Source of the DNA: Candidatus Uhrbacteria bacterium
GTDB taxonomy: Bacteria > Patescibacteriota > Patescibacteriia > 2-12-FULL-60-25
Assembly (NCBI GenBank): GCA_020854265.1
Contig: JADZFU010000006.1
Span: 1-64,000 of the forward strand
Direction: 5' to 3'
DNA length: 64,000 nucleotides
The notes below the pieces were generated by a model. The model did not search any database. It worked only from the letters and a program-made list of their open reading frames with translations, and was not told the origin of the DNA. Made by a program: the position numbers and the translations under genes. Shown piece after piece: positions 3 to 38,922 of the stretch. Within the stretch, counting starts at the first letter, position 1; every line of letters begins with the position of its first letter.

Positions 3-1229
3 AAACTCCATCTTGCTTTGGCGACTGGCGAGAAAAAAGAAACGCTTGCTTTGGATTATGCGCGTCGACATTTGGCAAAAGCGGTTATTCAGCCGGGCGA
101 GCGGCAAACTTCAACGATCAAATCGCGTTTGCAGCTCGCTGGTGCAAAATCGATTCTCATGCGCGGCGAGCTCCATGCCACAGCCTCCTTCTTTAATCGT
201 ACGAAATTCGGACCTGATGCCGTTACCGACCTGCGCAGCGTACGCGATGTGCTTGCTGGTCAGACCGAACCGGAACGCATCTACTTAAATCTTGTTCGTG
301 TAGATGAAGGAATCGACGACTACCTATTTGGCTCAATAGAAGAAGGAAAAAAAATCGAAATCGCGACCGCGCTCATCAACCATCTAGAAGAAGCGGAGGC
401 CGAAATCGCGGGCAAACAGCTAGACCCGCGTCTTGTGAAAAAAGCGCAAGCCGTGCGCGAACGTTTGGCGGATGCCTTCGGCATCTCGCCAGAAGGCACG
501 GATCCCTCGGCAGATCCTTCGGACAAAACCGAAATTCGTATCGATGAACCGACGCTTAACCGTCCGCTCTTGAAGCCCGCACCAAAACCGTCTCCAGCGC
601 CAACGACCGCTCCGACGACCCGCGTATATCAGCGGCTCCAATTGCTGGCATCACCTTCAACTGTTGCCGTTGGCCAACCGGTCAAATTGAGCTTGTATGG
701 CGTCAAAGCCGACGGTCAGGCCGAGGAGATTACATCGCAAGCCGTATTCGTCCTCGCCAACCCCTCATCTGGCTCGCTCACCTCGAGTATTTTCACGCCT
801 TCAATCGAAGGTACGGCAACCATCAGCGCGGCGTATAAAGACGCGCAAGGAACCCGCTCTGCCAGCGCCTCCGTCACGGTAAAAAACCAGCAAATCCAAG
901 GAGTTCAATTAAAGTCGATCGCATTCCAGCTCACGAGCCCGACTACGCTCGCCTGCGGAGGAACAGTCCCATTTAAAATCATGGGTACCTACACGGATGG
1001 AAAAACCAAAGACGTGACTATTCAATCCAAATTCACCGTATCTGATAGCAAGCTCCTCTTTGCCGAGCAGGGTAAAATCTTGACATTCTGTCCGTCTACG
1101 GCCGAGGCAACGGGCACGGTAACGGCCAGCGTTACTGAAAACGGAATCACAAAAACAGCAACGATATCAATTACGGTTCTGCGCGATCCAAACTCCGGAA
1201 GCGGAGGGTACCGTTACCGATACTACTAG
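3..1229 (+). CDS. Partial protein with helical N-terminal region and bacterial Ig-like domains
   Basis: The frame is open to the left edge, so the true start lies outside the window; a TTG at 18 has no start signals. The first 150 or so visible residues are mainly charged helix (for example EEAEAEIAGKQLDPRLVKKA). A Pro/Ala/Thr linker follows near residues 185-200, then two beta-rich repeats of about 95 residues each, with patterns such as SPSTVAVGQPVKLSLYG and GTATISAAYKD, typical of Big_2-like Ig domains of surface proteins. The C-terminus is Gly/Tyr-rich (GYRYRYY). It is probably extracytoplasmic, but the signal peptide, if any, is outside the window. The N-terminal domain is not recognised. 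Confidence 0.7.
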   Translation, partial: KLHLALATGEKKETLALDYARRHLAKAVIQPGERQTSTIKSRLQLAGAKSILMRGELHATASFFNRTKFGPDAVTDLRSVRDVLAGQTEPERIYLNLVRVDEGIDDYLFGSIEEGKKIEIATALINHLEEAEAEIAGKQLDPRLVKKAQAVRERLADAFGISPEGTDPSADPSDKTEIRIDEPTLNRPLLKPAPKPSPAPTTAPTTRVYQRLQLLASPSTVAVGQPVKLSLYGVKADGQAEEITSQAVFVLANPSSGSLTSSIFTPSIEGTATISAAYKDAQGTRSASASVTVKNQQIQGVQLKSIAFQLTSPTTLACGGTVPFKIMGTYTDGKTKDVTIQSKFTVSDSKLLFAEQGKILTFCPSTAEATGTVTASVTENGITKTATISITVLRDPNSGSGGYRYRYY

Positions 1230-33191: not shown

Positions 33192-33974
33192 ATGATGGAA
33201 GATATAAAGCAGTCTTTGGTCGAGCTTGGATTGGCGCCAAAAGAAATCGAAGTATATCTTTCGATGCTCGAACTTGGCCCATCCAGCGTACAGGACATCG
33301 CCAAGAAAGCCGGAGTAAACCGTTCCACAACCTATGTCATGATCGAAGGCCTCAAAAAGCATGGCCTTGTTTCCACCTACGAAAAAGGCAAAAAAGTTTT
33401 TTTCGTAGCCGAAAATCCGGATCGCTTGGTACAAGTCGTGAACGAGCAGATCGGTCTCCTGTCAGCCAAACGCGAACGCGTATCCGCCGTCTTACCGCGC
33501 TTACTCGCCATCTTCAATGCCTCGGATGAAAAACCAAAAGTCCGCTTCTTCGAAGGCGATGAAACCATAGACATGATCCGGATGGATGTCGCAGCCTTCC
33601 GTTCCCCGGTCTGGAATTTCTTTGCGGTTGATGAAAATCTAAAAAAGGTCGCATCGATAAATGAAGAAAAACGCATCGAACTTTCTTCAAGAAACCCGGA
33701 GTCTCGTGTGTTGATGGCAGTAAAGCCAGGCGTAGTTCCGCAGTACATGGACAGATCGAATAAAGAGATACGCGCCATCAATTATGAGGATTTCCCATTC
33801 AGCGGAGAGATCACAATTGTCGCCGACCGGGTATATATCGTAAATGTCCAGGCCAGATCTATTGGCTTCATCGTCGAGAACAGGGAGATAGCCGATTTGT
33901 TCCGCGCCATTTATCAAGCAGCTTGGAATGGTGCAAAACCATGGACGCCTCCTGAAGGTTGGAAACGCCCGTGA
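33192..33974 (+). CDS. TrmB-type winged-helix regulator
   Basis: 260 aa. Winged helix at 1-75 (LVELGLAPKEIEVYLSMLEL, VQDIAKKAGVNRSTTYVMIEGL, KHGLVST), a coiled linker, and a C-terminal domain of about 150 residues (KVRFFEGDETIDMIRMDV, SGEITIVADRVYIVN) as in TrmB-like regulators, where it may bind a sugar. It sits after a glycosyltransferase gene. TAAGAT overlaps the upstream stop. ATG 33192 or 33195 are both possible starts. Confidence 0.82.
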   Translation: MMEDIKQSLVELGLAPKEIEVYLSMLELGPSSVQDIAKKAGVNRSTTYVMIEGLKKHGLVSTYEKGKKVFFVAENPDRLVQVVNEQIGLLSAKRERVSAVLPRLLAIFNASDEKPKVRFFEGDETIDMIRMDVAAFRSPVWNFFAVDENLKKVASINEEKRIELSSRNPESRVLMAVKPGVVPQYMDRSNKEIRAINYEDFPFSGEITIVADRVYIVNVQARSIGFIVENREIADLFRAIYQAAWNGAKPWTPPEGWKRP

Positions 33975-33992: not shown

Positions 33993-34019
33993 AAGCCCTC
34001 CGAGAGTATCGGAGGGCTT
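33993..34019. terminator. Bidirectional terminator
   Basis: AAGCCCTCCGA with TCGGAGGGCTT around GAGTA. It ends the TrmB-like gene on plus and the short-peptide unit on minus. Confidence 0.85.
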
Positions 34020-34049: not shown

Positions 34050-34187
34050 CTACTCACCAGACGAGCAATTCGTGGCGGGCCGGAGGAACCAGCGCCGGGT
34101 GGAACGCATCTGGCTGCCGAGGGGCTTGCGGTGATCGCAGCCGCCGCCGGAAGCGTGGAGGGAAAAACTGGCATGATGAAGGTACAT
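34050..34187 (-). CDS. Short peptide gene 2 (45 aa, RRWFLRP motif)
   Basis: ATG 34187 follows AGGAG at 6 nt. The C-terminal 23 residues align without gaps to those of the peptide encoded at 34522-34596: LGSQ, four variable residues, RRWFLRP, two variable, NC, two variable, G, one residue, TAG stop. Fourteen of 23 positions are identical, and 10 of those 14 use different synonymous codons, which argues for selection on the peptide. The N-terminal 22 residues (MYLHHASFSLHASGGG and CDHRKP) have no counterpart. No family recognised; the peptide is cationic with one Trp and two Cys. The transcript would run from the promoter at 34362 to the terminator at 33993. Confidence 0.75.
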   Translation of the reverse strand: MYLHHASFSLHASGGGCDHRKPLGSQMRSTRRWFLRPATNCSSGE

Positions 34188-34355
34188 CGATCGCTCCTGC
34201 CCGGGAGTGACCGTCTCGCCCCTATTGCCCGGGTGGCAATGGTGAACGTCGACGCGGATAGCGCCAGCCGTTCAATCACCAGTGATTGATTGTGCTGACG
34301 CGTCGCCCGACATGGGGCGGACGTGTCCGGCAGATGTCTGGCATCGAATGCCGAA
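34188..34355 (-). ncRNA. Long structured 5' leader of short peptide gene 2
   Basis: About 168 nt between predicted start site and ATG. It contains potential hairpins: a 7-bp stem CAATCAC/GTGATTG (34273-34288) and a TTGCC/GGCAA stem around 34236. A length greater than that of the gene suggests cis-regulation by RNA. An 84-codon frame with GTG at 34279 also runs through it, but it is low-complexity and has no SD. Confidence 0.4.
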
Positions 34356-34361
34356 CGAGCT

Positions 34362-34390
34362 ACCTAACCAGAAAATAACCTTTTCGTCAA
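34362..34390 (-). promoter_or_regulatory. Promoter of short peptide gene 2
   Basis: Minus strand TTGACG, 17-nt spacer, TTAGGT. The same -10 (TTAGGT) with a similar TTTTCnTG spacer end occurs in the promoter of the lipoprotein at 36460. Confidence 0.75.
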
Positions 34391-34402
34391 GGGGTAAAAG
34401 AT

Positions 34403-34435
34403 AACCCCCGACCCCGCTATGCGGGATCGGGGGTT
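34403..34435 (-). terminator. Terminator of short peptide gene 1 unit
   Basis: AACCCCCGA, C, CCCGC and their complement around TAT: a 14-bp stem with one bulge. T-rich DNA follows on the minus strand. Confidence 0.85.
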
Positions 34436-34521
34436 CGGCAGCGCGCAGATGCGCTGTAGGAGTCTGAAATGCTCTGCCGTAGCAGAGGATACAAGCCCTT
34501 TGAGAGGGGCATGTCGCGGCT

Positions 34522-34596
34522 CTACAAGCCGTCCTGGCAGTTCGCTACGGGACGAAGAAACCACCGCCTCGAGCGAACAGTTTGCGATCCGAGCAT
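34522..34596 (-). CDS. Short peptide gene 1 (24 aa, RRWFLRP motif)
   Basis: ATG 34596 follows AAGGAG at 8 nt on the minus strand. The 24-aa product begins MLGSQ, contains RRWFLRP and ends NCQDGL then TAG. It is homologous to the C-terminal half of the 45-aa peptide at 34050-34187. It has its own promoter (34665-34692) and terminator (34403-34435), so it forms a separate transcript of about 250 nt with about 85 nt of GC-rich, hairpin-prone RNA after the stop. Function unknown: a secreted cationic peptide, a toxin-like peptide, or a dual-function RNA are all possible. Confidence 0.7.
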   Translation of the reverse strand: MLGSQTVRSRRWFLRPVANCQDGL

Positions 34597-34664: not shown

Positions 34665-34692
34665 ATGCTAACTCAAGCACAATTTTCGTCAA
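34665..34692 (-). promoter_or_regulatory. Promoter of short peptide gene 1
   Basis: Minus strand TTGACG, 16-nt spacer, TAGCAT. It is divergent from the plus-strand promoter at 34765. Confidence 0.55.
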
Positions 34693-34793: not shown

Positions 34794-34856
34794 TAACTGT
34801 TTCGATGATGGATATTCGTGTCCATTGTCGATTCGACTTTCGAAAAAAGGAGTTCC

Positions 34857-36191
34857 ATGAACAGCAAGCTCGTGTTCGGTTTCGTCTGCCTCTGCCTCAC
34901 GGCCATCGGCTGCGGTTTCGACCGCTCGCCGCTCGGCCCCGACGACATGCCCGGCAGCGATGCCGGCATGCCTCCGGATAGTCCTCCGCCCGACAGCGGG
35001 ATGGAGGAGCGTCCGGATCCGTCGTCCACCGGGTGTATGCCCGGTTCGCTCCGCGACGAGGCATGCGCCAACCCCGCTCGTCCCTGCGAGCGCGGCGAGT
35101 ACTACGCCTGTCTCGAGAACGGAACCTGGACGTGCGTCGTGAGCGATCGCTCGCACTGCTCCGTCCCGGATCCCGAGCCCGCCTGCGACGACACCCAGCG
35201 CTTCTGGCGCGACGGCGACGGCGACGGCTACGGCAACCCAGACGACTACATCGTCCGCTCCGAGTGCGAGTCGCCGCCATCCGGCTACATGAACGCCATC
35301 AGCGGCCGCGAGGACTGCCAGGATCACGACCCATCGGCTCATCCCGGCGGCGTCGAGATCTGCGGCAATGACAGCGACGAGGACTGCAACGGCATCTACG
35401 ATGCTTGCCCCTCGACGCCGCCGGCCTGCGCATCCGATGCGCGCGTCGTGTCGCCCACGGCCTGCGTCATCCCCGCGACGGCAACGTCGTGCGTGATGAC
35501 CGGTCTGTACGTCTGCAATCCCGACGGACGGGTCGTCTGCCGCGGTGATATCCGTGTTTCCAGCACGGAGATCTGCGGTGACGGACTCGACCAGGACTGC
35601 AGCGGCTCCGACATCGCCTGCACGTCGACGTGCACGCCCCGCAGCGAAATCTGCGGCAATGGCGTGGACGAAGACTGCAACGGCGTGGCCGAAGCCTGCG
35701 TTCCGGCCTGCGTTCCGTCGGCCGAGATCTGCGACAATGGCCGCGACGAGGACTGCAACGGTTCGGATCTGGCTTGCCCGCCTCCTGGCGGTACGAGCAC
35801 GGTCCGTGTCGTGGTCGAGTTCCGCGTGGTCAACACGCCGACCGACTACGGCACCGTCTCGGCCCATCGCCTCCGAGGCGACGATCTCTCCGAGATCGTC
35901 TGCCGTAACACCGGCACAGTGGAGCCGCTGTCGCTCAGCGATGGCTGGCGCCGCTGTGTCATCGAGGTGACCGGCTCCTTGCTCTTCGTGGGCAAGTTCG
36001 AGTCGACGCGCATCTCGGCGGGGGACATCCTCCACACCACATCCGACTGGGGACGCTCCTCCTGCTACGGCCTCGATGGCGTACAGTGGCGCGTCTACCG
36101 CGAGGATACCGGCATCTCGCTCCTATCGAGCTCCGTGCCCGAGATGGTGCGCGGTTCCGCTGGCGGCTGCCGCCATCGTATCGCTCTCTAG
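34857..36191 (+). CDS. Lipoprotein with MopE-type metal-binding repeats (four)
   Basis: 444 aa, class B. Lipobox LTAIGC (Cys19), then a linker with SDAG and Pro. The middle has Asp-rich FWRDGDGDGYGNPDD (thrombospondin-3-like calcium loop) and four copies of the EICGN-x3-DEDCNG motif (EICGNDSDEDCNG, EICGDGLDQDCSG, EICGNGVDEDCNG, EICDNGRDEDCNG), as in MopE-type proteins that bind copper or calcium. The C-terminal 130 residues are beta-rich with two Cys pairs and are unrecognised. The start is set by AAGGAG 5 nt upstream; the earlier ATG at 34818 is in the leader. Repeats and DAG linkers are common in Myxococcota lipoproteins. Confidence 0.85.
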   Translation: MNSKLVFGFVCLCLTAIGCGFDRSPLGPDDMPGSDAGMPPDSPPPDSGMEERPDPSSTGCMPGSLRDEACANPARPCERGEYYACLENGTWTCVVSDRSHCSVPDPEPACDDTQRFWRDGDGDGYGNPDDYIVRSECESPPSGYMNAISGREDCQDHDPSAHPGGVEICGNDSDEDCNGIYDACPSTPPACASDARVVSPTACVIPATATSCVMTGLYVCNPDGRVVCRGDIRVSSTEICGDGLDQDCSGSDIACTSTCTPRSEICGNGVDEDCNGVAEACVPACVPSAEICDNGRDEDCNGSDLACPPPGGTSTVRVVVEFRVVNTPTDYGTVSAHRLRGDDLSEIVCRNTGTVEPLSLSDGWRRCVIEVTGSLLFVGKFESTRISAGDILHTTSDWGRSSCYGLDGVQWRVYREDTGISLLSSSVPEMVRGSAGGCRHRIAL

Positions 36192-36312: not shown

Positions 36313-36459
36313 ACTCTCTTCCCTGCGTCTTGGGAGAACCAAGGCTCAGTGAAGCGGAATTTCTCCGGGAGAAGTACCCGGCTTCCGTCGGTTCTTTCAT
36401 ACACCAACCGGCTTGCCATGAGCCGTAATCAATCATGGTTGTTTCGAAAGGAGATCGGG

Positions 36460-38922
<2,463 letters not shown>

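Follow-up and report, generated by a model that had tools for sequence, protein, structure and literature searches.

Regulators of the TrmB family are best known for sugar sensing, and RopB, the partner of the leaderless communication peptides (LCPs), belongs to the Rgg family. TrmBL2 is described, in an excerpt of PMC4158304 that also supplies the accession PF11495, as being without the extra sugar-binding part of TrmB. The LCP/RopB pair is a precedent for a free peptide that works with a regulator (excerpt of PMC10518010). In the arrest peptide SecM, the motif FXXXXWIXXXXGIRAGP places its Trp 11 residues before the A-site Pro166 (PMC7897499, in part), and in TnaC, Trp12 and the P-site Pro24 are 12 residues apart (PMC8429421, in part).

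We analyzed a window of 64,000 nucleotides from Candidatus Uhrbacteria bacterium (contig JADZFU010000006.1, positions 1 to 64,000), in which an earlier note had described two minus-strand micro-ORFs. Both are present as claimed (Table 1), with SD-like AAGGAG and AGGAG sequences and with TAG as the stop codon of each, and the alignment gave the same identity between the copies, 14 of the last 23 residues; by codon reading, 10 of these 14 are encoded by different synonymous codons. Among 1,090,026 pairs of C-terminal 23-mers from the 1477 stop-terminated open segments of the window, two pairs have at least 14 identities: the micro-ORF copies (14) and the pair 55564/56798 on the (+) strand (16), which by eye resembles two related permease-type proteins. 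The motif regular expression matched twice in the window versus once in 19.2 Mb of block-shuffled window copies. The likeness of the two copies is not due to chance, and the proposed tandem duplication is supported. LGSQ, which had been counted as conserved, is not part of the conserved segment of the family; it is common to the window copies and missing from the other aligned members.

Table 1. Positions of the micro-ORFs, their signals and their neighbors in the window
Feature	Position	Strand	Basis
Micro-ORF 1, 24 aa, MLGSQTVRSRRWFLRPVANCQDGL	34522..34596	-	ORF reading and pairwise comparison
Conserved C-terminal motif of copy 1, RRWFLRPVANCQDG	34528..34569	-	Alignment, selection analysis
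Promoter-like site of copy 1 (TTGACG, 16 nt, TAGCAT; 9 of 12)	34665..34692	-	Promoter scan
Intrinsic-terminator-like site after copy 1	34403..34435	-	Scan
Micro-ORF 2, 45 aa, C-terminal end RRWFLRPATNCSSGE	34050..34187	-	ORF reading and pairwise comparison
Conserved C-terminal motif of copy 2, RRWFLRPATNCSSG	34056..34097	-	Alignment, selection analysis
TTGACGAAAA decamer upstream of copy 2, same as at copy 1	34381..34390	-	Sequence reading
Intrinsic-terminator-like site after copy 2	33993..34019	-	Scan
TrmB-family regulator, 260 aa, TrmBL2-like (HTH and PLD-like domain), convergent with both micro-ORFs	33192..33974	+	Pfam, model, structure and sequence search
Genes with MopE metal-binding motif adjoining the micro-ORFs	34818-36191, 36349-38922	+	Motif

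The suggestion that each copy has its own promoter and terminator holds for the terminator-like sites of both copies and the promoter-like site of copy 1, whereas a promoter for copy 2 is only partly supported, no promoter at its TTGACGAAAA decamer having passed the scan. No structured RNA in the window matched Rfam at the gathering score. Both adjoining genes carry MopE motifs, as expected from the proposed setting beside metal-binding lipoproteins, but this link was rejected because the neighbor that recurs elsewhere (in families f1, f9 and f40, by eye, with neighbors unclustered) is a convergent TrmB-family regulator. MopE-type genes were not noticed in the f9 neighbor lists, which were inspected by eye. 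In some f1 stretches (L075, L077, L079, and L092), lipoprotein-like starts were seen by eye close to the module.

The functional part of the family is its C-terminal 13–14 residues, R-x-W-x-[L/I]-R-P-V-A-[H/N/R]-C-x-x-G, while the N-terminal part differs in length and sequence between members. The check for homologues in related genomes that the note had proposed, run by pairwise and profile search, yielded 23 genomes with the motif. By motif reading, homologues occur in 15 of 41 genomes of the window's own family, f1 (G000, G001, G002, G004, G010, G011, G014, G015, G016, G022, G027, G031, G057, G060, and G061), in 7 of 9 of f9 and in 1 of 10 of f40, so that at least three families of Patescibacteria have the motif. 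With the copy-2 peptide as the first query and E allowed up to 10, matches came from 22 of 57 genomes, the window's own among them; many were due to chance, and the rows read as real were built into a 12-row profile. This profile matched 28 of 41 f1 genomes at E ≤ 1 (15 counted after motif reading) and 136 of 285 genomes in a class sample at the same threshold, mostly weakly, which added f9 and f40. A 24-row profile matched 7 of 9 f9 genomes, 2 of 10 f40 genomes (G215 alone accepted) and, at E ≤ 0.001, 8 of 379 genomes in a phylum sample, including G441 and G363 (f133) as well as G339 (f101); 2 of 16 genomes in the class of G441 have a profile match. E-values per genome were as low as 4e-14, with the profile's own rows matching by construction. 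Profile matches in G017, G034, G089, G110, G150, and G265 were left uncounted.

Departures from the consensus include RS (G001) and RR (G060 and G061) in place of RP, and tandem copies occur in G060 and G061 in addition to the window (G000). Weaker candidate copies lie beyond TrmB in G025, G028, G032, and G035, and the other genomes inspected at that place have none; the candidates in G025 (WMWPPQANC) and G028 (WELQPVRHC) are divergent and lack the motif Arg. Second copies reading FGLRP[IV]AHCP were seen in L081 (5957-6007; G031) and L083 (5992-6087; G015), downstream of a stretch that by eye resembles a tRNA 3′ end, where ARAGORN found no tRNA; L083 also contains a gene resembling ParA and, below the cut-off, a weak match to SMODS. 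In the G363 copy (L103, ~790-875, minus strand), YMLRPVT occurs two times, and the second x of C-x-x-G is a TGA codon. The g15 forms (L085, L086, L092, and L082), of 74–75 aa with a hydrophobic N-terminus, were likened to precursors or monitoring arrest peptides, and the G057 form is 121 aa long, its ORF overlapping the end of trmB. By eye, a hydrophobic N-terminus is present in the g15 forms of G016, G057, G060, and G061 and absent from most other members, and no export signal common to the whole family was seen. Two matches, in MAGs of Novosphingobium (L112) and Bacteroidales (L114), were rejected as chance, since they do not end in C-x-x-G and longer ORFs overlap them on the opposite strand.

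As the earlier note had argued from the codons, selection acts on the peptide and not on a nucleic-acid repeat. Among 26 Patescibacteria sequences gathered by pairwise search and profiles, pN/pS is 0.33 in the motif (pS 0.83, pN 0.27) versus 0.87 in the eight codons upstream and 1.28–1.44 in the other two forward frames and the antisense. The phage set described below (78 distinct sequences) gave 0.26 in the motif versus 0.76 upstream and 1.41–1.81 in the other frames and antisense; since it was gathered by residue patterns, some of its residues are fixed by choice, with third positions free. Within the motif, all six codons are used for Arg and Leu and all four for Pro, Val, Ala, and Gly, and synonymous sites are near saturation while the residues stay.

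The family is not confined to Patescibacteria, as a residue-pattern search of IMG/VR revealed the same motif on at least ~130 uncultured viral contigs. The patterns gave 10, 57, 2, at least 120, and 15 stretches, and 128 occurrences were read in the main round, with further ones in a second round, before drops. Seven viral rows (L116, L119-L121, L139, L165, and L168) were dropped as chance, and L117 (the contig of L125), L118 (the contig of L124), and L126 (another contig with the L122 sequence) were left out of the counts. We kept 132 phage loci among the matches listed, many of them closely related; three doubtful ones (L160, L166, and L179) are included in the hairpin and neighbor counts and excluded from the selection analysis. 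The shortest phage ORFs are 16 aa long (L135 and L170). The position of the stop differs among 94 phage sequences: it comes two codons after the Gly in 42 and 11 codons after it in 19, none occurs within 12 codons in 30, and 3 have it elsewhere. Searches of phage records by blastn gave nothing convincing, and tblastn with two phage micropeptides gave nine records, all with E of 0.9 or more; in the three inspected (H1, H47, and H48), the match is either antisense to an annotated gene or in a different frame from it. One peptide searched against plasmids had no match.

In the main phage set, 82 of 92 distinct sequences have a hairpin, GCGG[GCT]-N5-[ACG]CCGC, that starts at nucleotide 15 when numbering begins with the first base of the Gly codon. 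Stem pairing holds in 445 of 470 cells of the 94 sequences versus 201, 209, 248, and 289 when the stem is slid by one or two. The 11-nt spacers before the hairpin come in 60 different versions among the 94 sequences, a few of which are without it. The stem itself is nearly invariant, with clean compensatory closing pairs in L141 and L198 alone and a different stem at the same place in L162. Whether or not a stop codon comes first, the hairpin is present: the stop precedes it in 42 of 94 sequences, as the second codon, and in most others lies further on or is missing, so that the spacing tracks the motif and not the stop. The fixed spacing could also be explained by the short distance and few indels, and the hairpin could be a processing or stability element. 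The GCGGG-N5-CCCGC form was seen in L123, L131, L181, and ~80 other distinct IMG/VR sequences, in many cases preceding a T4-type prohead protease-like gene. Genes downstream in phages are often alike, and we call the main set T4-like because the downstream gene of L123 matches the head maturation protease phrog_207 and prohead proteases of phages that we take to be T4-like. No common hairpin was seen at that place after the 26 Patescibacteria copies, and at the Rfam gathering score, 12 loci yielded two tRNAs, both in L087, and nothing else.

The mechanism that we consider best, with a probability of roughly 40%, is that the peptide acts as a nascent chain inside the ribosome tunnel, in the manner of SecM and TnaC. 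The motif segment would act while still inside the ribosome, with its Trp near the tunnel constriction, 11–12 residues from the peptidyl-transferase center as in SecM and TnaC, and its Cys-x-x-Gly end would slow or halt the ribosome, so that the micro-ORF could serve as sensor or brake. For the main phage set, a ribosome paused in this way would have the conserved hairpin at its mRNA entry edge. In the window organism, the output might lie on the micro-ORF's own short transcript and terminator, facing trmB, which is the weakest step. We prefer this mechanism because selection acts on the peptide near its C-terminus and the motif alone is conserved, with an 11-residue distance between Trp and Gly like those in SecM and TnaC; because the two phage ORFs of 16 aa mean that a whole peptide would fit into the exit tunnel; because the phage tails vary (94 sequences), so that the motif matters more than the end of the peptide; because the hairpin lies at ribosome distance; and because the ribosome is a partner common to phages and Patescibacteria. 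A same-strand gene follows the micro-ORF in many phage loci, but most of the genes seen next to it in L137, L310, L312, L313, and L314 lie on the opposite strand.

Several observations count against nascent-chain action. Unlike classical leader peptides, the window micro-ORFs have their own terminator-like sites, and no same-strand gene follows them before the convergent trmB; a cis leader of a downstream gene was rejected for Patescibacteria because TrmB is convergent in 18 of 18 loci that contain it and in the window. The missing common hairpin in Patescibacteria and the candidates beyond TrmB without the motif Arg also speak against it. Tentatively, a single device of ~14 residues may act on the ribosome or another universal target with different partners in each lineage; in Patescibacteria, the partner may, on the same tentative footing, be a TrmBL2-like regulator, and in phages, a DUF1360-like membrane protein together with the positioned hairpin.

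The linkage to a convergent TrmB and to a variably oriented DUF1360-like gene fits a trans-acting peptide better than a nascent chain. The main alternative, which we rate somewhat less probable than nascent-chain action but which the convergent, separately transcribed genes of Patescibacteria suit better, is that a free peptide is released and binds the adjoining TrmBL2-like regulator or is a main output of that regulator; in phages, the same kind of peptide would have another partner, the DUF1360-like membrane protein. In its favor, a convergent TrmB-like gene is present in 19 of 23 genomes (f1, 11/15; f9, 7/7; f40, 1/1). Among 25 stretches taken, 24 contain the motif (L096 does not), and a TrmB homologue is found in 18 of these, the window being the nineteenth case. 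Micropeptide-trmB gaps range from −75 to 718 nt, with one of 2054 nt (G001), so that 18 genomes have the pair within 720 nt; this linkage is kept although the outer neighbors of the pair differ between genomes. Against it, TrmB is absent from the 12-kb stretch in 4 of the 23 genomes (G004, G015, G027, and G031), where the best TrmB homologue lies about 48–62 kb off or on another contig, and none was noticed within 2.3–3 kb of the f133 and f101 copies.

The type of regulator also favors a free peptide. The window TrmB matches the PF01978 HTH (E 7e-14; 51.9 bits, cut-off 25.6), and its AlphaFold model (alignment of 13 rows, pLDDT 87.8, pTM 0.55) finds TrmBL2 and TrmB as its best PDB matches, followed by PLD-family nucleases. 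Sequence search concurs, while whole-chain superposition is poor (TM 0.39). PF11495 is absent from its domain matches, and by this model, the regulator appears to be without the C-terminal sugar-binding part of classical TrmB and to resemble TrmBL2. The diverged tandem copies in G000, G060, and G061 and the separate transcription units, indicated by the window's terminator-like sites and by promoters in f9, point the same way. All seven f9 loci (L087, L089, L090, L091, L093, L094, and L095) have a TATAAT box in the region upstream of the micro-ORF, 134–264 nt ahead of the codon for Trp (or Tyr), with GTTCTTT next to it in five loci and a CCTTT variant in two. Inverted repeats such as AGAACAATTGTTCT occur near the promoter in three f9 loci, and judging from sequence, the TATAAT and GTTCTTT/CCTTT region with its inverted repeats is a possible candidate operator of the linked TrmB.

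On the phage side, 114 of 132 loci (not independent cases) have a CxxCxGFW-type ORF no further than 1.5 kb away versus an expectation of 39.0 from random placement along the same stretches, which again favors a free peptide with a partner. The DUF1360-like ORF lies upstream, downstream or on the opposite strand relative to the micropeptide. Three neighbor proteins of this type that we examined all match phrog_781; one of them passes the PF07098 cut-off in Pfam, one falls below it, and the third weakly matches another family. No DUF1360-like ORF is listed for 17 of the 132 loci, several of them near a stretch end, and none was noticed within ~1.6 kb at L135, L180, L316, and L319. Small DUF1360-like membrane genes adjoin the micropeptide in L137, L310-L315, L317, L115, L162, and L170, and in Gordonia and Microbacterium phage records, a DUF1360-like gene was seen near terminase or portal genes. 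Counting against a free peptide, DUF1360 was found in none of the 41 f1 genomes, the C-terminal tails vary, and an export signal is not common to the family.

Less likely still is some other trans-acting micropeptide, which could, for example, inhibit a universal target or regulate the membrane protein of the phages; in Patescibacteria, TrmB would then be its repressor. The small, basic, Trp-containing peptides, the separate transcription units in the window, the varying orientation of the phage partner gene, and the inverted repeats near three f9 promoters would suit such a role, but the layout matches no known system that we recognized. Silent library scans of single members neither help nor harm a trans-acting reading. 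That the ORFs arose by chance or belong to a DNA or RNA repeat, with no function as peptides, is highly improbable: in one phage set, the hairpin does reveal selection on RNA next to the ORF, but residues are kept while synonymous sites are near saturation, profile E-values are low, and this reading was rejected on pN/pS, the shuffled-motif count, and the 23-mer pair count.

The claim of an undescribed micropeptide family is upheld by a motif conserved in relatives and by the lack of any description in the Pfam, PHROGs, and literature searched. Window copy 2 and one phage peptide had no Pfam match, another phage peptide fell below the cut-off (E 0.11), and one phage peptide searched had no match in PHROGs. 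Literature searches, with preprints and most subscription papers outside their scope, gave one unrelated match to the motif strings and nothing on the family under TrmB, small or arrest peptides, DUF1360, and micropeptides. The family is thus apparently undescribed and occurs in related bacteria and many uncultured phages, and this conservation hints at a fundamental role, possibly exerted on the ribosome. Genes of 16–45 codons are easily overlooked by annotation. The clear motif with its recurrent regulator neighbor offers an entry to gene control in Patescibacteria, and the phage side an entry to a peptide-plus-hairpin element. If the peptide stalls ribosomes, it does so with a motif that differs from those of SecM, MifM, and VemP and could serve as a probe of the ribosomes of Patescibacteria; were it to bind TrmB, a family known mainly for sensing sugars would gain a peptide ligand.

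Compared with described systems, the window regulator shares the PF01978 HTH and the PLD-like domain with the TrmBL2 subtype at a length of 260 aa and differs in being bacterial and having its gene linked to a micropeptide. DUF1360 and phrog_781 are families of no assigned function, and the six records matched by the DUF1360-like queries contain no micropeptide in ~6 kb (the L323 match lies opposite annotated genes). As with the leaderless communication peptides and RopB, a very short ORF lies near the gene for a transcription regulator, but here the regulator is convergent and of the TrmB family, and it was not noticed beside phage copies. Three g15 forms of 74–75 aa, in which the hydrophobic N-terminus lies ~57 residues before the end of the motif, resemble secretion-monitoring arrest peptides in this N-terminus and distance. 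The family motif is unlike those of SecM, MifM, and VemP as given in the excerpt of PMC7897499, and unlike SecM and TnaC, the Patescibacteria loci with adjacent TrmB have no same-strand target gene. The family is like SecM and TnaC in its short conserved C-terminal segment, in the Trp 11–12 residues from the end of that segment, in the variable N-terminus and, for the main phage set, in the hairpin just downstream.
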